The notes under the pieces were generated by a model. That model ran no database searches. It was not told where the DNA came from and worked only from the letters and a program-made list of their open reading frames with translations. The translations under genes were made by a program, and so were the position numbers. From Picochlorum sp. 'celeri' (lineage: Eukaryota; Chlorophyta; Trebouxiophyceae), in contig JAACMV010000010.1 in NCBI GenBank assembly GCA_010909725.1, positions 907,501 to 971,500 of the forward strand: a DNA stretch of 64,000 nt, written 5' to 3'. Below are positions 1,382 through 64,000 of this stretch, in pieces. The first letter of the stretch is position 1; the number at the start of each line of letters is the position of its first letter.

Positions 1382-1692
1382 CCGCTGGACACGTGGCGAG
1401 TGCCTGTCACCTGTAGCTACATGCAGGAGCAAACAACGGGATTGCCATGTGGATTGATAGAGCCATTTGTTGGCCTGTTGACGAGACTGCCCCATGTGAG
1501 GTCGCGGTCGCCATTGTCTGTGACACCGGAGGGTATCATGGGCGTGGCGTCTAAATGCCGGGACACCGGGTCAGGAGGGAAACCTAGCAGCCCACCTCGG
1601 AGCCGTGATCGGCACAGGGATACCAGGCTTGAGGGTCACGGTGGAGTTACTCGATCATGTCTGCACTGGCGAGACTATTTTGTCTACCATTC
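1382..1692 (+). ncRNA. Signal recognition particle RNA (7SL RNA)
   Basis: This is the RNA scaffold of the signal recognition particle, which targets secretory ribosomes to the ER. Near the 5' end, GTGCCTGTCACC followed by GTAGCTAC resembles the Alu domain of 7SL RNA. At 1569-1592 a GTCAGG strand, an AGG-GAAA-CCT hairpin tip and an AGCAGCCC strand reproduce helix 8, with a GNRA tetraloop and the asymmetric loop that binds SRP54. Near 1660-1685, CTGCACTGG then GCGAGAC and TTTTGTCT match the 3' Alu strand. A run of six T at 1693-1698 is a polymerase III terminator. The length of about 310 nt is normal. The 5' and 3' ends are estimates to within a few bases. Confidence 0.85.
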
Positions 1693-25127: not shown

Positions 25128-25488
25128 GGTAGTGATATTAAATAATGGTGGGTGTTTGTTCCATGGCCGATGCCATGTATTCGGCAGATTCGGAAATGAA
25201 ATCTATATTCATATTACGGAGTTGACTCCGGGAGGGGGGATGCGAGAGTACGGGTACAACCCTGCGTAAGGAGCCTTGCGGGCTGTATAAAAAACGAATA
25301 CAGATATTTTTGCCAACAAGGTGCAGTCTGGTATACCTGCAGACAAGAAAGAACGCGTAGGCGAGCCAACCTTGTTTGTCAACGCTCGAACACGACGGCA
25401 CCGTCTCATACTCTCTGTATACAAAGGCGTTTACCAATATATCTATTTTTCTTCTTCTCATGGGTGTTGTATGTGAGGGACCACGTTG
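25128..25488. promoter_or_regulatory. Divergent promoter region, ferredoxin-like gene and RR-WD40 gene
   Basis: 361 bp between two outward-reading start codons. An inverted GGAGTTGACTCC (25219-25230) palindrome is visible and could be a transcription-factor site. No gene is seen. Confidence 0.35.
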
Positions 25489-27546
25489 ATGGATGAAAAC
25501 GGGAACCCAGGCACTGTAGTCTCATCCATGAACAACAGTATGGGTGGTGGGGATGGCGTCGAGGGTATGGAGCAGAGGTTGACGTCCTGTATAGAAAAGG
25601 CTCTCCAGGGGGTGGTGGTGGAACGGCAAGAGCATGAAGGGCCTTCGCCAGGTGGAGACGCGCGTGAGGTGGATTCGTCGCAGCCAGCCACAGATGTTGC
25701 TAGTGCGTTGGCGCACCAGACTCGTCATGGCTTGCGTCCTGAAGATCTTCATGTGTTGGTCGTGGATGATGAGCGTATGTCAAGGACGATTGTATCGTCT
25801 CTTTTGAAAAAGTGCAAGTATTCTGTGACAACAGCAGAGGATGGAGCTGAGGCTATGGAGTTGTTGAGGTCACACCCTCCCGGGACGTTTCATCTGGTTT
25901 TGACGGATGTTCAGATGCCTCACATGAACGGATTGGAGTTATTACAGTATATTAGAAGTGAGGAGACGCTGCGCTGCGTCCCAGTGGTGATGATGTCGTC
26001 GTATGATAACGGCAATGTGGTGTATGATTGTGTGGAGGGTGGAGCTGAAGAGTACTTGGTGAAGCCAGTCACGCAAAAGGAGGTGCAGCGCATTTGGCAG
26101 CATGTATTGAAGAAACGAAGTGTGGCGACGACAGTGCCGCAGGCGGATGCGAAAATGATGCAGAATGTGGCATTGACAAAGGAGGTTGACACATGTACGA
26201 GCGGTGAGACTGGCCGGGAGGGCAAGAGTACTGTGACGAGCGACTTTTTGAAAATGATGAGGAACAAACGAATTCAAGAGATTGCCGAGCTGAGGAGTCA
26301 AGTGAGCCAGCTTGAGAAGGATTGCAGCTTGGTGGAACGTATATGTGGCATGGAAATGAATGGTCATGATGGAAAACGCCAAAAGTTTGACTCGGCAGTA
26401 CTGGATAAAAAGAAGGAATTGGATAATGTGTACTTTACCAAAATACACAATGAACACAAAGAAGATGCATTGAAGCATTTTGCAAGAGATTTGAATGTGA
26501 TGTCGCAGATGAATGCCTTCCATGTGACATCTGTGATTCGCTCAGGGAATTTGGCAAACCCGCAGGAAATGGTTTGCTGTGCGGATTTCGATGCAGATGA
26601 TTTACATTTTGCTACTGTGTCAGTATCTCGATCTGTCAAGGTGTTTGATTTCGAAAGTATGATGACTACTCCAGATGCCTTGCAGTTTCCAGTGTGGCAG
26701 GCAACGACACGGGCAAAATTGAGTTCAGTTTCTTGGAATTCTTACATTCGATCTCATTTGATCACATCTGATTATGATGGGTGCGTTCAGTTGTGGGATG
26801 TTTCCAGTGGGGCGACGAATGAGTTGACTCAGTTTGAGGAGCATTCAAAAAGAATTTGGAGCATTGATTTTTCTCGATTGGATCCTCTCCAGTTTGCGTC
26901 TGCATCGGATGATTCCACCGTCAGACTTTGGAATTTACAGCAGTCTTCATCCATCGACTGTTTGAAAACCCCAGCGAATGCATGCTCTGTACATTTCTGT
27001 CCCTTCAAAGCAACAACTCTTGCTGTTGCATGCGCAAATCATAATAGTTACATATTTGATACTCGCAAAACTGCGAGCCCAATTTCAGTGCTCACGGGAG
27101 CAAGTCGAGCCGTGTCGTATGTTCGGTTTTTGGATCGCCATACTGTCATTGGTGCATCCACAGACAATACTGTTCGGGCATGGAATCTGGACACGGAAGG
27201 AGATGTGGTGCCACCTGCAGAAGAGTACAAGGGCCATGCCAACGAGAGAAATTTCGTTGGACTGAGTGTCCATCAGGATGGATTTATCGCCACGGGATCA
27301 GAAGACAACTCTGTCTGCTGTTATTATAGAGCATTTCCATTCCCCATCACCCAACACATGATTGACGCTGGCGATTCAGAGTCCGACAAAAAGCCCATGA
27401 GCTCAAACAACCCCAGAACATTCGTGAGCTCAGTTTCATGGGCACGCCATTCAAAGCACCTCTTGGTAGGAAACAGTGAAGGCGTGCTCCAAGTATTACA
27501 CATGAAAGAATTCAAGAACGATATGAATACTACGTTGCCAAAATGA
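25489..27546 (+). CDS. PRR-type receiver domain fused to a COP1/SPA-type WD40 propeller
   Basis: 685 residues from the ATG at 25489, single exon. Residues about 85-205 are a receiver domain: acidic pocket VVDDE, phospho-acceptor Asp140 in LTDVQMP, the hydroxyl residue in VVMMSS and Lys in LVKP. VPVVMMSSYDNGNVVY and IWQHVLKK closely follow plant pseudo-response regulators (PRR), but the Asp is kept. A coiled coil lies near 255-285. Residues about 345-675 are a seven-bladed WD40 with the COP1/SPA hallmarks KLSSVSWNSYI, ASDDSTVRLW, AVSYVRFLD, ASTDNTVRAW and NFVGLSV. There is no RING or kinase domain. COP1/SPA propellers bind VP-motif light-signalling substrates, so a phospho-regulated adaptor is a reasonable inference. 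Confidence 0.85.
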   Translation: MDENGNPGTVVSSMNNSMGGGDGVEGMEQRLTSCIEKALQGVVVERQEHEGPSPGGDAREVDSSQPATDVASALAHQTRHGLRPEDLHVLVVDDERMSRTIVSSLLKKCKYSVTTAEDGAEAMELLRSHPPGTFHLVLTDVQMPHMNGLELLQYIRSEETLRCVPVVMMSSYDNGNVVYDCVEGGAEEYLVKPVTQKEVQRIWQHVLKKRSVATTVPQADAKMMQNVALTKEVDTCTSGETGREGKSTVTSDFLKMMRNKRIQEIAELRSQVSQLEKDCSLVERICGMEMNGHDGKRQKFDSAVLDKKKELDNVYFTKIHNEHKEDALKHFARDLNVMSQMNAFHVTSVIRSGNLANPQEMVCCADFDADDLHFATVSVSRSVKVFDFESMMTTPDALQFPVWQATTRAKLSSVSWNSYIRSHLITSDYDGCVQLWDVSSGATNELTQFEEHSKRIWSIDFSRLDPLQFASASDDSTVRLWNLQQSSSIDCLKTPANACSVHFCPFKATTLAVACANHNSYIFDTRKTASPISVLTGASRAVSYVRFLDRHTVIGASTDNTVRAWNLDTEGDVVPPAEEYKGHANERNFVGLSVHQDGFIATGSEDNSVCCYYRAFPFPITQHMIDAGDSESDKKPMSSNNPRTFVSSVSWARHSKHLLVGNSEGVLQVLHMKEFKNDMNTTLPK

Positions 27547-27825
27547 TTGCTCCTTTCCTTCTTTTTATACCAGGTTTTTTTCATCTTTTTCTTCTAGCTT
27601 CTGTGTAAAAGGAATGCATACACTTCATGTGCCCTTCCAGCGCAGGAACGGCCTTGTGTCATGATAAAATGGGTTGATATCATTGTATCAAACACATTTA
27701 TTATCTGAAATTCATGTTTGCCAGAGTATTTTGCGTCACTTTTGAGGGTAGAGAGTCAGAAAAAGACATTTTTGACTATATATGTAACAGAAAATTCAGA
27801 AATGAACAGTCGATTTTGCTAATAT

Positions 27826-27929
27826 ACAGAGGGTCGGGGGTTCGATTCCTCCCAGCTCCACGTTTCGAGGGTTAAACAGTATTCGAATCATTGGGGCTGT
27901 GGCTCAGTGGTAGAGTATCTGTTTCGCAA
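27826..27929 (+). tRNA. Circularly permuted tRNA-Ala (CGC) gene
   Basis: The 3' half lies first and the 5' half second. 27826-27860 holds the anticodon 3' strand ACAGA, variable loop GGGTC, T arm GGGGG-TTCGATT-CCTCC, acceptor strand CAGCTCC and discriminator A. After a 32-nt spacer, 27893-27929 holds acceptor strand GGGGCTG, D arm GCTC..GAGT, A26, anticodon strand TCTGT and loop TTCGCAA. Acceptor (7 bp), D, anticodon (5 bp) and T stems all pair across the two halves. The acceptor contains G3-U70, the alanine identity pair. The anticodon is CGC (27925-27927). TTGC in the leader (27816-27819) can pair with GCAA (27926-27929), as splicing-endonuclease processing might need. Confidence 0.88.
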
Positions 27930-28150
27930 CCGGTTTTTTTTAATCTTTTTACATTATCTTGTTCTTCTATACGTTTATATTCATCTGTAATCGCATTACA
28001 AGTCGATTTTGACCAAGAGAGTCTCACATCTCCTAACATATCTTCTATCGCCGGTCAAACGTTCCTTTTGATGGGAAATATATTCCACTCCCTTCTCGGG
28101 GAAGGGTTTCCCACGATCCCTTTAAAAAGAGCCTTTGACATGGCATGTCA
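27927..28150 (+). repeat. Left direct repeat of the 27.9-31.8 kb element
   Basis: About 224 bp that recur at 31576-31795. Both begin CAACCGG plus a T-run and end GGCATGTCA. The first 130 bp are nearly identical; the rest differs by small substitutions and indels (roughly nine in ten bases match by eye). The first three bases, CAA, are the end of the tRNA anticodon loop. Near its end TGACATG-G-CATGTCA is a short hairpin. Confidence 0.85.
27934..27941 (+). terminator. Polymerase III T-run terminator of the permuted tRNA
   Basis: Eight T residues begin four bases after the 5' tRNA half ends, which is where a polymerase III transcript of a permuted tRNA should stop. The same T-run (seven T) recurs in the right copy of the flanking direct repeat at 31583-31589. 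Confidence 0.7.
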
Positions 28151-28579
28151 CTCGAATTCGCGAATTGCTTGCCGCAGCCAACATGTCAAGGAATTCCTGC
28201 CGCAGAGTCTCTTCTAGGATTCAATGGTATCTTACCAAGACGTCCTGATAACGGCGTACAGCATGAAGATTTGCATCTGGTGCAGCCAGAAGGAAAAGTA
28301 TCTGGGATTGACATGTCATCAGTGCAGGGCTACAACAATGCCATCTTCGATGGGCTCCCTGACTCCATCTTGCCGCAGCCAACGTGTCAAGAAACTCCTG
28401 CCACAGAGTCTCTTCTAGGAGCCTATGGCCTCGTGGACGATGGCATCTTGCAGAATTCCACTCCAGGAACCCCTTTGTTTGTCAACGACAACCAGGATGG
28501 CTTTTTCATGGAGAGTTATGATTCATTTGCCGAGGCAAATCCCTTCATCTTCAATGACGATGAAAATCGTTCCCTATAA
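28145..28579 (+). CDS. Acidic ORF with an internal 57-bp duplication, element-borne
   Basis: 144 codons from an ATG that lies within the last bases of the left repeat. I recognise no family. The protein is acidic (rich in D, E, N), with two similar blocks containing LPQPTCQ and ESLLG about 67 residues apart. These correspond to DNA duplicates at about 28168-28224 and 28369-28428. The acidic, Phe-dotted C-terminus (FFMESYDSF, FIFNDD) resembles activation domains, which is only an analogy. The spare coding-like frames downstream (28659-29174) could be further exons, so the 3' end may not be the true one. Confidence 0.4.
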   Translation: MSLEFANCLPQPTCQGIPAAESLLGFNGILPRRPDNGVQHEDLHLVQPEGKVSGIDMSSVQGYNNAIFDGLPDSILPQPTCQETPATESLLGAYGLVDDGILQNSTPGTPLFVNDNQDGFFMESYDSFAEANPFIFNDDENRSL

Positions 28580-29143
28580 TCCCGATGATCGCATGTGCAT
28601 GATTTCTGAGAAGATAGATACATGAGAAGTACAGTTGAGATACTTCCAAGTTTACGTCATGAGAGGATGCTGTGTGTGTGGTGTTGAAAAGGAATGGAAG
28701 AGACTTATTGTTGTCAAGAAAATTTTGAGGATCTCTTCAGTTGGAGGCATGAAATATCAGGACAGGACGGCGGTGTTGATGTTTCGTTATGGGCTGCCTG
28801 CAGGTGGGTAGGTGGGTAGGTGGGTAGACCAGCCAGTGATCGAATGATGCTTCCAATTTTGAATGCGATGAGATCAAATGTCTCTCGTACACTGCTATCA
28901 TACGATGGAAAGAAGAGTTTTCAGATGGTAAAAGTCTTCAATAATAATTATATATACACAAGAGCAGGACATCAAAGACTGCTTGAATCACAACACGAGT
29001 GACGTGCTATTTCCAAATCGCTTTGTACACGACAGTGAAAATAGAAAAAGGTACGCTGGGTTGCTTATGCGATGCGAAATTACCCTTCTCTGTTTTAATG
29101 ATAGTTATTTGATCATTGTATATGTCACTTGCAGGTTTTCTCA
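28580..29143 (+). other. Element interior with coding-like fragments and a probable 5' intron
   Basis: A frame from ATG 28659 encodes a short CCVCG-containing, Lys-rich peptide that stops in the TGGGTAGG tandem repeat at 28804-28827. Two further open stretches (28820-28927 and 28968-29050) could be joined by a 40-bp intron. A good donor (AAAAAG|GTACGC, 29051) and acceptor (CACTTGCAG, 29134) frame an 84-bp intron just before the ATG of the nuclease gene, so at least part of this is probably 5' UTR. I cannot settle the exon structure. Confidence 0.3.
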
Positions 29144-30902
29144 ATGGGTCCGAAAGAAGAAGAGGCATCCTTAAACAACAGACTGATTACATTCTACTAT
29201 CAGCCTGTCGCATCATACCGTAGTCTTCCACAGCAGCCCATCAACAACAACAATGATGAAGATGATGTCACTCTGACCTATCGAGAGACCGATTCCTTGT
29301 ATGATGAGACCCTTGAGCATAGCAGTGGTGCAACAGTAGAGGTGGTGGATCTTACAGGAAGCCAGTCGGAGTCTCATGTTCCATGTTTAGAGGATGATGA
29401 GAATGATCTTGCGAATTATTCTCCAAGAACAGAAACACGCAAGGAGAATCAAGAAAACGCTGCTCCACAGGTTGCATATGGCCCTCGTGAAGCAAAGCGT
29501 CTCAAGTTACTAAACAATAATAGTACTTGCTTGTTTTCTGATGAGAGTTGCTGTGATGCATCTCCTCAAAGGATCTGTCCAGACGTGGTCAAGAGCACTC
29601 CAATGCAAGGACGTCTCACAGAGGTTCCTGTCAAGCTGGGAGTGCCATTCGCCCCTCTGGAGAATTCAGGTGACAGGTACGTCTATATCATAAACATAAC
29701 ACATTCATGTGTGTTTCATGACAGGAGAGGCTTAATTATGCTACATTGATTGACCATGTATATATTCTGCATGAAGGGTGCATGGAGAGGCCAAAGGCAA
29801 TAGCATCATAGATGCTCCTTCAAGATATGCGCAAGGCAAAAAGGATCTGGAATTAGTGGTCGAAGAAAAGAGAAACATCTTGCATGCCGTTTACGGTGAA
29901 AAATACAAGTCCAAGAAGGGCAAGTATGATGAGGAAGAGGAGAACTTGATCAGGGCAGCTGTGGCAGCCTATCTGAAAGATGGTCCAGAAAGAGAGTATA
30001 TAGATACAAAATGGGGGGGTCTGCGAGCATATTGCAGTAAGTATCTGATGCCTTGGAGGAATAGGGAATCCATCAAGAAGAAGATCAAATATGTCAGAGA
30101 ACAACAGTCAACAGAGTCGCCTTCAGAGCGGAGAGAATGGACATCCGAACAGAAAACCCTGCTATTGTCACTGTCACAAAAAAAAGAATATCATATCAAT
30201 ACATTGGGGCATACAGACTGGGCAAAGGTAGGTAAGGACTATTTCCCAGAGATTGACGGACCATGCACAGCCCTTCCTATTGTCCTCAGAAATTACAAAC
30301 GGCACCTTAAGGAGCACAGCGGCGCATATTCGGTCAAATCGACTCATTACACTGAGGATGAAGATTTACGTCTTTTGAAATCTGTTGAGGAAGTGGGAAA
30401 GTGTTGGGATTCACTTGTGGCCAGTGGGAAATTCAAAGGAAGGACTAAAGCATCTTTACACCAGCGGTATCGCAAGCTTACTGGGAACCCCACAACAACC
30501 AACCCAATATGCAATAAATGCAACACGATGACCGCATCGTATGGATATGAGGGCGAGGGAACCATGAGAAGTCGCTTGGAACGATGCAATGCATGCAAAG
30601 AGCCAGATATGGTGTATCTCCTCAGGTCAACCTGCAAGCACGAGGGGTGTACTGCCATTGCCTGGTATGGACTGCCAAGATATGGCGAGAAAATCCTGTG
30701 CTCAGCACATTATGATCAAACCAAGCATGTGGAAATCAGTAGAGCATGCAAATTATGCTTGAAAGAATGCCGGCAGAACCTAGCCGATGGGCCTGTGTAC
30801 AGGAGATTTCATGAACACTTGTGTGCTCGCCATTACCTCTGCGAGAATGAATCCAGTCTTGATCAAGCGACTGTAGAACGTATTCAGCGGTATATATCTT
30901 AA
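29144..30902 (+). CDS. SANT/Myb-like and EsV-1-7-motif protein, element-borne (2 exons)
   Basis: Exons 29144-29676 and 29777-30902; a 100-bp intron (donor ACAG|GTACGT, acceptor CATGAAG) keeps frame. After a disordered acidic N-terminus come about three SANT/Myb-like helical units (KYDEEEENLIRAAV; REWTSEQKTLLLSL; YTEDEDLRLLKSVEEVGKCW). A Cys-rich part follows. It contains C-x4-C-x16-C-x2-H (CKHEGC to CSAH), which is the EsV-1-7 motif known from Ectocarpus virus EsV-1 and the brown-algal IMMEDIATE UPRIGHT protein. A TAA at 30900-30902 then interrupts, but the same frame continues as a nuclease-like domain to 31499. The domain order suggests a sequence-specific DNA-binding nuclease. Confidence 0.65.
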
Positions 30903-31499
30903 GACAATACAGGCCGCAAAGTCAAGGAAGACACGGCAAATGCATGGCTCAATAATAATGTGTCAGACGTATTCAACATCAGGCGCGAGTCCCTAGGCAG
31001 GTGGTACCCTTTCAATCACAATATCACGGATCGTGCCTATAGAATCGACTTTTGCTTCGCAAGAAAAGAAAATTCTGCCCATAGGATTGCAGCAGCCTTG
31101 GAAGTGGACGAATGGCAGCATATGCATTATTGCATGCTGCAGGAGGCTCATCGCACTGGTGTGATCACTCGCGACTGGCTTGCCAAGAACATTCCATTCC
31201 TGCTGATTCGAATGAATCCAGATCATTATGTATTGAAGGGTACACACCAGGAAGGGGCTTTTTTCAAGAAGGCCTCTGTGCAGCGTAATGAATCTGAGAT
31301 GAACAAACGCATGACCATGGTCAAAAAGAATCTGGAGAAATTTTTCGCAAGATTCGATCGTTCCTCGACGTATTCTGAGAACAAACATGCTCCAGGCTAT
31401 ATGGTCAAGATTTGCTTTGATGGCGATTCTGTGGAGCAGTATTACCAGGCCAACAGAGAAACTGGAGCATGGGAACGTATTCAAGAGTGCCCATTTTGA
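30903..31499 (+). pseudogene. PD-(D/E)XK-like nuclease domain, in frame after a premature stop
   Basis: The reading frame of the preceding exon resumes directly after TAA at 30900-30902 and stays open for 198 codons. There is a YRIDFCF strand, then LEVDEWQHMHY and FLLIRMNPDHYVL. This D..ExDExQH arrangement, followed by an RxNPD strand, is that of the PD-(D/E)XK nuclease-like domain found in large algal DNA viruses and in algal genes with EsV-1-7 motifs. The catalytic-looking residues are kept. So either the stop is recent, or it is read through, or the two parts are expressed separately. No splice-site pair that removes the stop and keeps the frame was found. The first ATG-like start after the stop is weak. 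Confidence 0.6.
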
Positions 31500-31575
31500 T
31501 TTCACAAGATCCGATATGGTATATGTATACATAATCTGTCTATTTTTACCATCCTCAGGACTGTAATGAAAGACA

Positions 31576-31795
31576 CAACCGGTTTTTTTAATCTTTTTAC
31601 ATTATCTTGTTCTTCTATACGCTTATATTCATCTGTAATCACACTACTAAGTCGATTTTGACCAAGAGAGTCTCACATCTCCTAACATATCTTCTATGTC
31701 CGGTCAAACGTTCCTTTTGATGGGATACACACAGCCATCTCAGGGAAGGGTTTCCCACGATCCCTTCAAAAAGAGCCTTTGACAGGGCATGTCAA
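31576..31795 (+). repeat. Right direct repeat of the 27.9-31.8 kb element
   Basis: This is the second copy of the repeat at 27927-28150, in the same orientation. It begins ACAACCGG plus T7, without any tRNA half upstream, and ends TTTGACAGGGCATGTCA. Its last 80 bp are more diverged from the left copy than the first 130. Confidence 0.85.
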
Positions 31796-32241
31796 CGGAA
31801 TCCCAAGATTTGAATCTGAATTTACCCGCGCTTTGAAGGACACACGATTCGAGAATCAATCCGCAAAACTCCGCCATCATGAGACACTGCAGCATGCAAT
31901 AGCCCTCCAATTCATATTATATATCCAACAGCAGTAGTAATCATTCTCTGTTTAGGTACCGACTGTCTTTTCTTCTTCTCAAGTGCTGAGAGTAGAGCAG
32001 AGTAGTCGAACGCAAAGTCAACTTCAAACCGAAAAAACTCTTCTACGTGCTGTGACACGTCCAGCACGGTCATGCATACCATTGCTTTGATATATACTAC
32101 AAGCAGAAGAAAACGATGATGAAGAAGAAGAAATTCGTCGAATCGAATTCATTTAGAGGATACTAGTAGTCTTACAGCAGCAAAATACGAAATCAATACA
32201 CCCCAGGGGAAAAGAAGAAGAAGGCATGCATACATACTCTA
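31796..32241. other. Intergenic region beyond the element
   Basis: 446 bp before the stop of the complex I gene, AT-rich, with a GAA/AAG-rich stretch (32105-32132). I see no gene, RNA or obvious target-site duplication matching the tRNA side. Confidence 0.35.
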
Positions 32242-34548
32242 CTAGGCAGAGTTCTTCTTGTGTGAGACACATCGTGCCATTGTTTTACTGGCTCGACTGA
32301 TGGCATCCGTCTGATAAAACTGGCTGATCGAGGTCTTCAGTGGGTTGCTGTTGTCTACTTTTGTCTTCTTTGCCTTTTCTGCAGCAAGCTTGGCATACTC
32401 TCCTTTGGAGAACAGAGAAGACAGGGCTGGCTGGACAGTACCAGTGGAGACCAAGTGTGGTGCAACCTGAGCCAATCGTTGACGCATCTCGTCCAATGAG
32501 TTCGCTGGCAAGGTATGGCCGCACACCTCACTGAGGGCTCTAATAATCTCCCAATCATTCCTAGCCTGTGCAATAGGTGCCACTGCATTCTTTGTTGTCT
32601 GGGCACGTCCCTCTGTATTCACATATGTGGCATACTTTTCCGTGTATGCAGCGCCTGGAAGAACAATATCGGCGCGTGATGCACCTCTATCTCCATGGTG
32701 ACCCTGATAAATCACAAACGCATCTGCAGGGACATCCTTTTCATCAAAATCATCAGAGCCAAGAAGGTAGACAACCTTGGGGTCCTCCTGTTGCATTCTT
32801 GCCTTCACACTTGGAATGAACCCAACATCCAATGCAGTCACACTCGAAGCAGTGTCATGAAGGATATTCAGACCCGACCAATCATCTCTCACCACACCTG
32901 CCTTGTCGACAAGCTTGTGAACCTTGGCCATGACAGCGTCTCTATCATCCCGCCTGAGAACCCCAGACCCAACAATAACCACAGGGTTTGATGCACCACG
33001 CAAACGCTTGCACCATTCAGATGTTGTCTTTGAAATTGCATCCAGAGCGCTTGCCGTGTCACCCAGGTGCTCATATGGATATGTGAGATCCACCTCTGAA
33101 CCAACAACTCCAACTGGAACACCATACATGGCTTGTGCACGGATTCTAGCATTCAATACAGGACCCTCCACCCTTGGGTTCGTTCCAATCAACAATATAG
33201 CATCCGCCTCATCAATACCACTCAGTGTCGAATTGAACACATACGATCCACGGAGATCTGCATCCATATCCCCATATCCACTCTCATGCCTCACATCCCC
33301 ACAACCCATCCTATTCATCAAATCCTTCAACGCCACCATAGACTCCGCGTCCGCCAGCTTGCCTGCAATAGCTCTCATCGAATGCCCTGGTGTCTTGGCC
33401 AACACATCCCGCACTGCAGACAGTGCCGTCTGCCATTCACATTCCTCCAAATGCCCTTGTGCATTCTTCACCATTGGACTCACCAATCGCTGATACCGAA
33501 GCCCATCAAATTGATATCGAGTCTTATCCGATATCCACTCCTGATTAATGCTCTCATTCAAACGAGGCAGGATTCTCATCACTTCATTTCCACGAGCATC
33601 CACACGGATATTCGACCCCAACCCATCACTCGTATCAATACTATCCGTGCTCCTCAACTCCCAGCTTCGATACGTAAACGCAGTAGGTTTGGACGTCAAT
33701 GCACCCACCGGGCACAAATCCACCACATTCCCAGACAACTCAGACTCCATTGTCTTCTCCACATACGTCCCAATCTCTGCATCCCTCCCTCTCCCAGTAA
33801 TTCCCAGATCCTCAATCCCAGCAACCTCCTTTGCAAAACGAACACAACGAGTACAATGAATACATCTGGTCATCACCGTCTTCACCAACGGCCCCAGATT
33901 CTTATCCTGAACCGCCCTCTTCACCTCTGTAAACCTGCTCCTATCAGACCCAAACACCATGGCCTGATCCTGCAAATCACACTCCCCACCCTGATCGCAA
34001 ATCGGACAATCGAGAGGATGATTCGCCAACAAAAACTCCATCACACCCTCCCGAGCCTTCTTCACGAGAGGCGTATCCGTCTTGATGTTCATCCCAGGGT
34101 TGGCAGGCATGGCACACGACGCCACGGGTTTTGGCGATTTCTCCACCTCGACCAAACACATACGACAATTTCCAGCAATTGATAATCGCTGATGATAGCA
34201 AAATCTGCACAACCACGAGATACCGCATGAGGACATCCTTCCCACAGAGTTGAAGACACTCGGCATCTTCTACCAACATATGAAAAAACCATACCTTGGG
34301 ATATCAACACCGCCAGCTTCGCATGCCTGAAGGACATTGGACCCCTTTGGAACAGACACAGGTCGGCCATTCACAGTGACCTCGACCATGTCTTCCTTCT
34401 CCGCAGGTGCAGCCTCAGGCTGCGCAGAGAAACATCGACCATCAAATACAACCCCTCCATCATATTTTCCAAGCAGAGATGACCGAAGCAACGTCGCTCC
34501 CTTTCCCTGCCGAGCAGATGATCGCAGCAAGGCCTCGAGGCGCTGCAT
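32242..34548 (-). CDS. NDUFS1: NADH dehydrogenase (complex I) 75-kDa Fe-S subunit (2 exons)
   Basis: Exons complement 34295-34548 and 32242-34204, with a 90-bp intron (donor CCAAG|GTATGG, acceptor GTTGTGCAG). The join reads [20 protein letters not shown] and gives about 738 residues. NDUFS1 holds three Fe-S clusters in the N module of mitochondrial complex I. The cluster motifs are visible: FCYH..GNCRMC..C for the 2Fe-2S site; [18 protein letters not shown] for one 4Fe-4S site together with its histidine region; and TRCIHCTRC with a later C for the other. The molybdopterin-like domain follows. A mitochondrial presequence of about 40 residues precedes [14 protein letters not shown]. Confidence 0.96.
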
Positions 34549-62098: not shown

Positions 62099-64000
62099 TC
62101 ATCCATCATGAGGAGTTGATAGATAAAAGTCCTCCCCTTCCATTGTTATCTTGTCAGCGCTTTCTAATTGTTTGAGAATTTGAATGACATTTTCTCGTGA
62201 GACTCCTATGTTGCGAGATTTCAGCGTCTCAACCACTCCCGTGATTGATGTGCTACTGTTGTTTAACTGCCCAAGTTCCATCACAACCGATTGAATAATT
62301 TCACACTCCGATCCCGAGTCCTGATTTTCAGCCAAGTCTACTATTTCCTCAGATACCATGAAGTCAATATCAGCGTCATTTAGCCAGTCTAAATCCGCAA
62401 CGTCCACATCCAGGTCGATGAAATCAACATCTTCGTCTCCTTGGCAGGTTCTTCCCTCAAGGTAATTGGCAAGAGCCCTCTGGCTCCTTTTGAAATCTCT
62501 TCCCATAGTAATCATTAAAAGCTTTTTAGCTCTTTGAGGATCTAATCTATGTCTGGTAGGCTTGTATAAATGTCTCATTCTAGACCAAAGCCTTTCACAA
62601 CTGCAGGAGGTGACATGCATAGCAAAAAGGTTGCGAGTCACATAGTCAGATATGATGCGATAGCGAGGATGATCAATAGCCCTCCACAAGGAAGCGACAA
62701 TAAAATTTCCTCTGTCCCCTTCCTCTAATTTCCACTCGTTCTCCTGAGGCATCTTGCTCGATTCTATTAACTCTACCAGACTCTCTACATGGTCATAGTT
62801 CCTGATTTGAATCCCATCCTCCAGTAAGCGCTCTAGCTCCTTCAGCCCTTCATTCTTATCAGATTCTAGTATAAAGGACTTAAAAGCTACCTTAGCTTTC
62901 TCTAGTTGAGCTCGTGTCACATACTTAACGGGGGGCCTGAAGGTGTCGATAGCAATCCTCTCAAAAAATCTGAGATCCAAAAGGAAGGCCAGAGTGAAGA
63001 GATCAACGTTCGTGTACTCCATTCTTTTCCGTACTCTGACTGCCATTTCTTTTTCGACACCGAAAATTGTCTCCTGAGTTTTTTCTCCATTGAAACATAT
63101 GCTACCACCACCCTCAAAGGCAGGAAGTTCGCGAACCCGGAATTTATGGTCTAAGAACCGCCAAACAAAGTACATCTGAGTTATCATTGGCTTATCCTGC
63201 TCGATGTGGTGAATCATATCTACAACAGGCCCCAATATATCCACGAGTGTGGCCAGATTGGACCAAAACGAGTCTGAAAAAATCTTTGAGAATGCCAACC
63301 TCTGATCTTCTGTTGAGCTGTAAGTGTTATCTGGATTGAATTTGGAAAGCAATCTCTCGTTCCCAGCCATTTTTTTAATAGCTTCTTTAGATTGAATAAG
63401 ATCTCGCATTTCAGTCACGAAATATCCGAACCGTGTCTCGACTCCAAGCCTGAGAGGATAAGTCTTTTGGTACATTTCCTTTTGACATTCTTGCAAAATG
63501 GGACGACACTCTCTGACGTTGCACAGAAGCACCATCTTGTGAGATATCGAGAAGCAGTCTTCTAAGGTATCTATTTTGCTGATATCCTTCAACAGGAGAC
63601 TCAGAGTATGTGCCTGGCAGGTCATATGAATTGTTCCAGGGTATTTGGCCTGCAAGTCTTCTCCAGCTTTCCTGTATGCCATTTCTCCATCAAAAACACA
63701 ACCGATGTAACAGTCAGAACCCAACGCATCAATCATTGTTGTCATTTTATTGAACAAATACGATCGAGAAACCACCTCGTCATCTACTGTGGTGAAAATG
63801 TCACCCAGATGACTCCCTGTTGGAAAGTTCAAAGTTGCTCCTACCAGTTTACTGCCCTTGTTGGCATACTTTGATCTCCAAGAATCCGATGCTACCTGAA
63901 AGCACTTAAAATAGTTTATATTTGATTCTCTTGCAGCCAGAAACTCCTCGTACTTATTATCCAAAAATGATCCACAAAGAGTTTTCCTGCAGATACCAGA
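62099..64000 (-). CDS. hAT-type transposase with extra C-terminal winged-helix-like domain, partial
   Basis: The frame is open from base 64000 to the stop at 62099, so the N-terminus (probably a BED zinc finger) is missing; 633 codons are visible. The DUF659-like part has the catalytic Asp in GDIFTTVDDE and GCVFDGEMAYRK, with MTCQAHTLSLLLKDI after it. The C-terminal dimerisation region has the diagnostic SCSCERLWSRMRHLYKPTRHRL with catalytic Glu. An acidic linker rich in Asp leads to an extra domain of about 60 residues (LGQLNNSSTSITGVVETLKS to YLSTPHDG) with a winged-helix pattern. The visible reading frame has no internal stops, so the copy could be active. Confidence 0.85.
   Translation of the reverse strand, partial: SGICRKTLCGSFLDNKYEEFLAARESNINYFKCFQVASDSWRSKYANKGSKLVGATLNFPTGSHLGDIFTTVDDEVVSRSYLFNKMTTMIDALGSDCYIGCVFDGEMAYRKAGEDLQAKYPGTIHMTCQAHTLSLLLKDISKIDTLEDCFSISHKMVLLCNVRECRPILQECQKEMYQKTYPLRLGVETRFGYFVTEMRDLIQSKEAIKKMAGNERLLSKFNPDNTYSSTEDQRLAFSKIFSDSFWSNLATLVDILGPVVDMIHHIEQDKPMITQMYFVWRFLDHKFRVRELPAFEGGGSICFNGEKTQETIFGVEKEMAVRVRKRMEYTNVDLFTLAFLLDLRFFERIAIDTFRPPVKYVTRAQLEKAKVAFKSFILESDKNEGLKELERLLEDGIQIRNYDHVESLVELIESSKMPQENEWKLEEGDRGNFIVASLWRAIDHPRYRIISDYVTRNLFAMHVTSCSCERLWSRMRHLYKPTRHRLDPQRAKKLLMITMGRDFKRSQRALANYLEGRTCQGDEDVDFIDLDVDVADLDWLNDADIDFMVSEEIVDLAENQDSGSECEIIQSVVMELGQLNNSSTSITGVVETLKSRNIGVSRENVIQILKQLESADKITMEGEDFYLSTPHDG

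Follow-up and report, generated by a model that had tools for sequence, protein, structure and literature searches.

A circularly permuted tRNA-Ala(CGC) gene and its divergent alleles in the green alga Picochlorum celeri

The stretch of DNA analysed here, called the window, comprises 64 kb (C10:907501–971500) of Picochlorum celeri, a very small alga of marine origin. The assembly is described as that of a phased diploid, with 27.43 Mbp in two sets of 15 scaffolds, 46% G+C and 0.8% SNP heterozygosity (PMC7225527); our genome searches covered 27,412,692 bases in 30 contigs (C1–C30). On its forward strand the window carries the two halves of a tRNA-Ala(CGC) gene in reversed order, followed by a block of sequence that recurs beyond the remnant of one gene and a copy of another that has one in-frame stop (Table 1). 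The original prediction had the order of the halves and the 32-nt spacer right, and set each half one base off.

Table 1. Features of the window and further permuted tRNA genes of the genome (positions are those of the window unless a locus label is given)
Feature	Position	Strand	Basis or remark
Signal recognition particle RNA gene	1384–1681	+	Rfam Metazoa_SRP, 93.7 bits
Response regulator receiver domain fused to WD40 repeats	25486–27546	+	gene directly upstream of the tRNA
Region structurally different between haplotypes	27530–32159	+	length 4.6 kb, against about 2.4 kb on C16; flanks on either side 99.4–99.6% identical
TATA-like TATATA, candidate Pol III upstream promoter	27777–27782	+	48 nt before the 3' half; likewise placed on C16
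Leader bases i-8 to i-3, pairing with positions 37 to 32	27817–27822	+	5/6 pairs; anticodon–intron type of pairing used by the splicing endonuclease
3' half, tRNA-Ala positions 38–73	27825–27860	+	direct reading and both covariance models
Spacer between positions 73 and 1	27861–27892	+	32 nt; direct reading
5' half, tRNA-Ala positions 1–37	27893–27928	+	anticodon CGC at 27925–27927; direct reading and both covariance models
Downstream block, copy 1	27929–28157	+	adjoins the tRNA 5' half
T8 run, likely Pol III terminator	27934–27941	+	direct reading; T8 at +6
Gene X, truncated C-terminal remnant	28139–28579	+	family almost only in Picochlorum
Myb and EsV-1-7 protein gene	28694–31496	+	coding pieces 28694–28810, 29129–29677, 29754–31496 (tblastn with relatives)
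Downstream block, copy 2	31577–32050	+	its first bases, CAACCGG, resemble those that close the tRNA 5' half
ORF with DUF659 and hAT dimerisation domains (hAT-type transposase)	62099–63964	-	
Permuted tRNA-Leu(CAG)	L060 7377–7513; L061		
Permuted tRNA-Cys(GCA)	L064; L065		
Permuted tRNA-Arg(TCT)	L066; L067		
Permuted tRNA-Tyr(GTA)	L068		
Permuted tRNA-Arg(CCT)	L070; L071		

Read directly from 27813 to 27941, the leader is followed by T38, positions 39–43 (ACAGA), the variable loop (GGGTC), the T arm (GGGGG TTCGATT CCTCC), positions 66–72 (CAGCTCC) and A73. The spacer then runs from position 73 to position 1, CCA being absent from the gene, and the 5' half reads GGGGCTG TG GCTC AGTGGTA GAGT A TCTGT TT CGC A, succeeded by ACCGG and the T8 run that had been predicted 3' of it. 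Joined, the halves give a full cloverleaf with U8, G18G19, U33, the T-loop UUC and G15–C48 (bases read by eye). As the original prediction held, the acceptor, D, anticodon and T stems form across the halves; all of them close, including the acceptor stem GGGGCTG/CAGCTCC with G3–U70 and A73 and the anticodon stem TCTGT/ACAGA. The permutation places the B box upstream of the A box.

The position of the junction follows from comparison with five further permuted Ala genes described below. The base before positions 39–43 is T in all six (27825 in the window), whereas the base after A37 varies (A, G, A, A, G and C; 27929 in the window), which assigns position 38 to the 3' half and puts the junction at 37/38. 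Two covariance models, R1 and R2, place the gene ends 27825 and 27928 alike. Introns canonically lie at 37/38, which is also the usual junction among the green algal permuted genes listed in Table 1 of a review (PMC3978253).

Standard finders are blind to this gene, as anticipated: ARAGORN reported no genes in the 64-kb window, with introns allowed too, and the Rfam tRNA model matched nothing there over its cut-off. R1, a model of 16 sequences of which six are Ala genes of this genome, gave the window gene 84 bits. Since this training set includes the window's own gene, R2 was built from ten conventional tRNAs of the same genome, permuted in silico with random spacers and with no permuted gene in training. 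Its sole match in the 64 kb, on both strands and with E up to 10, was the window gene (59.2 bits, E 1.7e-18, E-values being rough). A stem-rule finder scored the gene at 26.18 with no other match in the window, and in 23 fetched loci it detected nothing but permuted tRNAs; when it was run on Markov-shuffled window sequence, 5.12 Mb over the two strands, no match reached 24. Once the halves were joined, ARAGORN called the window gene tRNA-Ala(CGC), and it returned the expected isotype for all 10 joined permuted genes tested (Leu left out).

Folding of the whole transcript was uninformative as evidence. The minimum-energy fold of the unprocessed window transcript is not the permuted cloverleaf, and its stability is no better than that of shuffles (z -1.27); for the bare gene the cloverleaf reaches -22.6 against a minimum of -33.5 kcal/mol. 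After joining, the cloverleaf is the minimum-energy fold of the window tRNA (-25.5). This holds for only 4 of the 11 joined permuted tRNAs, the window's included, which counts against the reading as permuted genes; the seven others include those of the C16 allele and both AGC Ala genes, and the Leu sequence lacks part of its long variable arm. The D stem has three of four pairs in three of the six Ala genes, the window's gene not among them.

All tRNA-Ala genes detected in the genome are permuted: CGC on C10 (the window) and C16, and both TGC and AGC on C4 and C30. A DNA search of this genome gave both TGC genes, the allele on C16 and two places with the block alone; fetching these regions and the matching part of C30 then brought the number of Ala genes to six. 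Each of the six carries G3–U70, A73 and an Ala anticodon. With one mismatch allowed, the 20 nt at the 3' end of the Ala genes match the genome at six places, which are the six permuted loci. The original prediction had named a conventional tRNA-Ala(CGC) elsewhere, supplying all reads, as part of what would speak against it; ARAGORN called none of 34 conventional tRNA hits Ala. A conventional tRNA-Ala is thus likely to be absent, though this is not proven because the census is incomplete: 63 of 866 candidates were scored and many isotypes were not recovered. The Ala DNA search missed both known AGC loci, and a generic plant-like tRNA-Ala query returned no candidates at all and is uninformative.

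These gaps leave some room for the permuted gene being real and expressed but redundant, next to a conventional tRNA-Ala that the searches missed. The confinement of the Ala 3' end to the permuted loci and the lack of Ala among the conventional hits argue against such redundancy, which we regard as unlikely, although a conventional gene whose 3' half differs would have slipped past these two checks.

Permutation in this genome extends beyond alanine. Permuted genes were found for Leu-CAG (C11, C19), Cys-GCA (C10, C16), Arg-TCT (C5, C20), Arg-CCT (C3, C23) and, on C4 only, Tyr-GTA, and all fit a 37/38 junction. With the three Ala loci, these five bring the genome to at least eight permuted tRNA loci. 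R2, blind to them all, scores 15 of 15 permuted gene places at 41–67 bits, and its eight weaker matches (up to 29 bits) all overlap conventional tRNAs.

The stems of these genes are maintained by compensatory changes. Among 11 permuted genes (one allele where alleles are identical), 97.8% of 231 cells are paired, compared with 67.8% in shuffles and 40–55% when the alignment is slid, and both sides change in 19 of 21 pairs; the alignment behind these counts was fitted to R1, which holds 6 of the 11, and leans towards structure, and its Leu row lacks part of the long variable arm. Another alignment, in which non-Ala rows were misaligned, was dropped. The Ala anticodon stems alone read TCTGT/ACAGA, TCTGC/GCAGA, TCTCT/AGAGA and CTTCC/GGAAG.

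The leader takes part in this pattern. In the eukaryotic splicing pathway, the partner of position 32 is the third base upstream of the 3' cut. All 11 permuted genes pair position 32 with leader base -3, and 10 of them pair position 33 with -4. Eight genes have U–A at position 32 and three have C–G, so that this pair covaries. When leaders were re-dealt among eight loci, the observed pairing at 32–34 was reached in 0.7% or 0.2% of permutations, depending on the Ala alleles used, and pairing at 32 alone in 1.8%. The pairing of anticodon and leader is imperfect (5/6 for CGC and TGC, 3/6 for AGC), and the junction motif is a relaxed rather than strict helix of the bulge-helix-bulge type. Pairs between anticodon and intron are described as important (PMC3978253, section 8). 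The genome encodes a splicing-endonuclease domain (C7/C24 pair, 69 bits) and RtcB. Seven further, equal matches to the tRNA splicing endonuclease domain PF01974 (49 bits, 112 aa open frame) lie on C9, C12, C26, C10, C16, C21 and C25, those on C9, C12 and C26 sharing the place 1564–1779 near the contig starts.

Both CGC alleles have a TATATA motif 48 nt before the 3' half, and a published proposal holds that permuted tRNA genes are transcribed in a TATA-dependent manner (PMC3978253). Only 5 of the 11 permuted genes have a TATA-like match within 60 nt upstream, so an upstream TATA is not general among the permuted genes of this genome. A Pol III transcript of the window gene would probably start at the upstream TATA-like site and stop at T8, and would run from the leader through the 3' half, the spacer and the 5' half into the trailer. 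Its leader would base-pair with the anticodon loop, tRNA-splicing endonuclease would cleave before position 38 and after position 37, and ligation of 37 to 38 would yield a circular RNA. RNase P and RNase Z would then remove the 32-nt spacer, after which CCA would be added.

The anatomy, the compensatory pairing and a design common to two haplotypes and three Ala isoacceptors are features of the DNA itself. They agree with the original prediction of a permuted tRNA-Ala(CGC) gene, as do the R2 match and the ARAGORN call, and we consider 27825–27928 to be a working type II circularly permuted nuclear tRNA-Ala(CGC) gene, with a probability of roughly 0.9; its product would be transcribed, circularised, processed and charged. 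The two halves could instead be a dead, unexpressed remnant of neighbouring conventional tRNA-Ala copies that lost their outer halves after tandem duplication, a duplication with change at both ends being a published scenario for the origin of permuted genes (PMC3978253). This is very improbable, given that compensatory changes preserve the stems in both alleles and at two paralogous isoacceptor loci, that the pairing of leader and anticodon covaries and that no other tRNA-Ala was found in the genome.

All six Ala genes are followed by a conserved block of 220–470 nt, directly in four cases and 0.6–1 kb away in both AGC genes. The two copies in the window lie 3.65 kb apart. Compared with the C16 block, copy 2 shows 95.1% identity over 467 columns, and copy 1 together with its tRNA 85.1% over 403 columns. 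The first 100 columns of copy 2 are closer to copy 1 (75/80) than to C16 (64/80), and the remainder is closer to C16 (334/339); the idea that copy 2 is simply the old resident block of C10 was ruled out by these first 100 columns. In parallel, block and gene X each occur twice after a single permuted tRNA at the TGC locus of C30, the second set being 98.6% identical to that of C4 and the first 89.4%. Recurrence of the block within about 1 kb after every Ala gene, and its duplication in the window, speak for a SINE-like gene, the tRNA-derived part of a mobile element without tRNA function. That reading is hardly credible: there are five other permuted loci, and at the four with two alleles these agree to 100% across tRNA and spacer; compensatory constraint acts on the stems; and the number of places with the Ala 3' end is six and not in the hundreds. 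An artefact of assembly or phasing, conceivable because the assembly was polished with long reads only (PMC7225527), is extremely unlikely in view of six separate Ala loci of one design and of flanks collinear between haplotypes; the genes next to the tRNA also have relatives in three further strains of Picochlorum.

The Ala loci differ strongly between the haplotypes. Tract for tract, tRNA and spacer are 81.6% (CGC), 70.6% (TGC) and 76.0% (AGC) identical, while the common flanks, which are collinear, reach 99.4–99.6% (CGC), 98.6–99.4% (TGC) and 97.3–98.8% (AGC, one side only). At the four other permuted loci with two alleles, tRNA and spacer are 100% identical and the flanks compared 94–100%. 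The AGC units of C4 and C30 lie in opposite orientation relative to the common flank. Among pairs of conventional tRNAs, presumed to be alleles and taken without a synteny test, 5 of 16 compared with flanks are less than 85% identical. Strong divergence of presumed alleles was noted for Lys-TTT (L028/L031), Trp (L040/L041), Gly-TCC (L045/L046), Ile-AAT (L003/L004) and Phe (L034/L037); it lies mostly in flanks or introns, Lys-TTT showing compensatory T-stem changes. Allelic divergence is therefore not unique to Ala.

Beyond the block, the Ala loci carry members or remnants of gene X. Among the best 7,992 candidates scored, relatives were confined to Picochlorum and one short metagenome contig. 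Thirteen of 17 gene X places are within 5 kb of a known tRNA, compared with 2.1% of random places, although six of the 13 are Ala loci, four of the tRNAs are known only from fetching those regions and allele pairs are not independent. The fetched 10-kb stretches around the places on C22, C2 and C27 contain no tRNA, and the C3 place is 5.5 kb from one. The gene X copy beside Ala-TGC on C4 (L017, C4:768330–769901) has two in-frame stops, TAG and TAA, and the C30 copy is open.

The gene for a Myb and EsV-1-7 protein has one in-frame TAA in the window (30900–30902). Its sole other full-length copy is on C4, at a distance of about 4.5 kb from Ala-AGC; two short fragments lie on C3 and C27, and the C16 locus and the AGC locus of C30 gave no match. 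A gene-bearing insert thus differs in presence between the haplotypes at the CGC locus (C10, not C16) and at the AGC locus (C4, not C30). Relatives occur in SENEW3, BPE23 and Picre1 (presumably P. renovo), and for the neighbouring genes together they are Picochlorum proteins and one metagenome protein. Myb and EsV-1-7 are the only Pfam domains over cut-off, and the sole PDB sequence match with E below 0.001 is a Myb protein. The motif EVDEWQH might suggest a restriction-type nuclease active site; as Pfam, PDB and a wider protein search lent this no support, we do not call the protein a nuclease. Structure models of two neighbour proteins were too poor to use (pLDDT 48.5 and 30.2; about 30 for the Myb/EsV-1-7 protein). 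No inverted repeats of 20 nt or more were found in 27500–32500, and the two copies of the downstream block are what forms the direct repeat on either side.

The coupling to an element noted in the original prediction is real as an arrangement, with downstream block and neighbour genes, while its meaning is unproven. The Ala loci look like the outcome of repeated replacement of a resident tRNA-Ala by a cassette bringing its own. The incoming unit would consist of a permuted tRNA with a different D arm and its spacer, the block, gene X and sometimes the Myb/EsV-1-7 gene; it would replace the resident tRNA-Ala and rescue the function that it destroys. Such replacement would account for alleles 71–82% identical inside nearly identical chromosomes, for the second block left in C10 and at the TGC locus of C30, for the opposite orientation of the AGC units and for the failure to find an unpermuted tRNA-Ala. 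That these loci are occupied by selfish cassettes forming a natural cleave-and-rescue system is nevertheless a speculative and rather doubtful proposal. No endonuclease, integrase or long target duplication was found at the locus; other tRNA loci show divergent presumed alleles as well, and hybrid ancestry or gene conversion could have the same effect.

Permuted tRNA genes are a rare arrangement but an established class, the latter as the original prediction stated: 34 had been tabulated by 2014, from six algae and one archaeon (PMC3978253). The type II genes of prasinophytes and of the Bigelowiella natans nucleomorph (Maruyama et al. 2010, cited in PMC3978253) resemble the window gene in having the 3' half first and a 37/38 junction. 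Spacers of 5–64 nt and a relaxed bulge-helix motif at the junction are tabulated for them, which the window gene matches with its 32 nt. The cases listed there are Leu, Ser, Cys, Arg, Asn and iMet, none of them Ala, in contrast to P. celeri, where all detected Ala genes are permuted. Cyanidioschyzon merolae (Soma et al. 2007, cited in PMC3978253) shares with the window an upstream TATA-like element and a T-stretch, with spacers of 7–74 nt; it has a permuted Ala(TGC) gene, but with the junction at 59/60 in the T loop (type IV) (PMC3978253). Auxenochlorella UTEX 250-A, like P. celeri a diploid trebouxiophyte with a streamlined genome, also has permuted tRNA genes, and its tRNAscan-SE set is described as incomplete until these were found (PMC12633428, PMC12636532). 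A search by title and start of abstract, with subscription journals mostly outside it, found no report of permuted tRNA genes in Picochlorum; papers that mention both include an Auxenochlorella paper and PMC13353863. The class being known, also from another trebouxiophyte, the unusual part here is the setting of the Ala genes, with divergent alleles inside otherwise nearly identical chromosomes. The relation of disrupted tRNA genes to mobile elements is presented as an open question in the 2014 review (PMC3978253).

Picochlorum, a fast-growing biotechnology alga with genetic tools, thus joins the organisms having permuted tRNA genes, and Picochlorum tRNA sets obtained with tRNAscan-SE, such as that described for SENEW3 (PMC11092101), may be incomplete. 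The divergent, rearranged alleles make a link between permuted tRNAs and mobile elements testable within one diploid genome, and if cassettes do replace resident genes, this would connect permuted tRNA genes with mobile elements that target tRNAs. In this alga one amino acid, alanine, appears to depend for all of its decoding on tRNA circularisation; if so, knock-down of splicing or ligation should impair alanine decoding.
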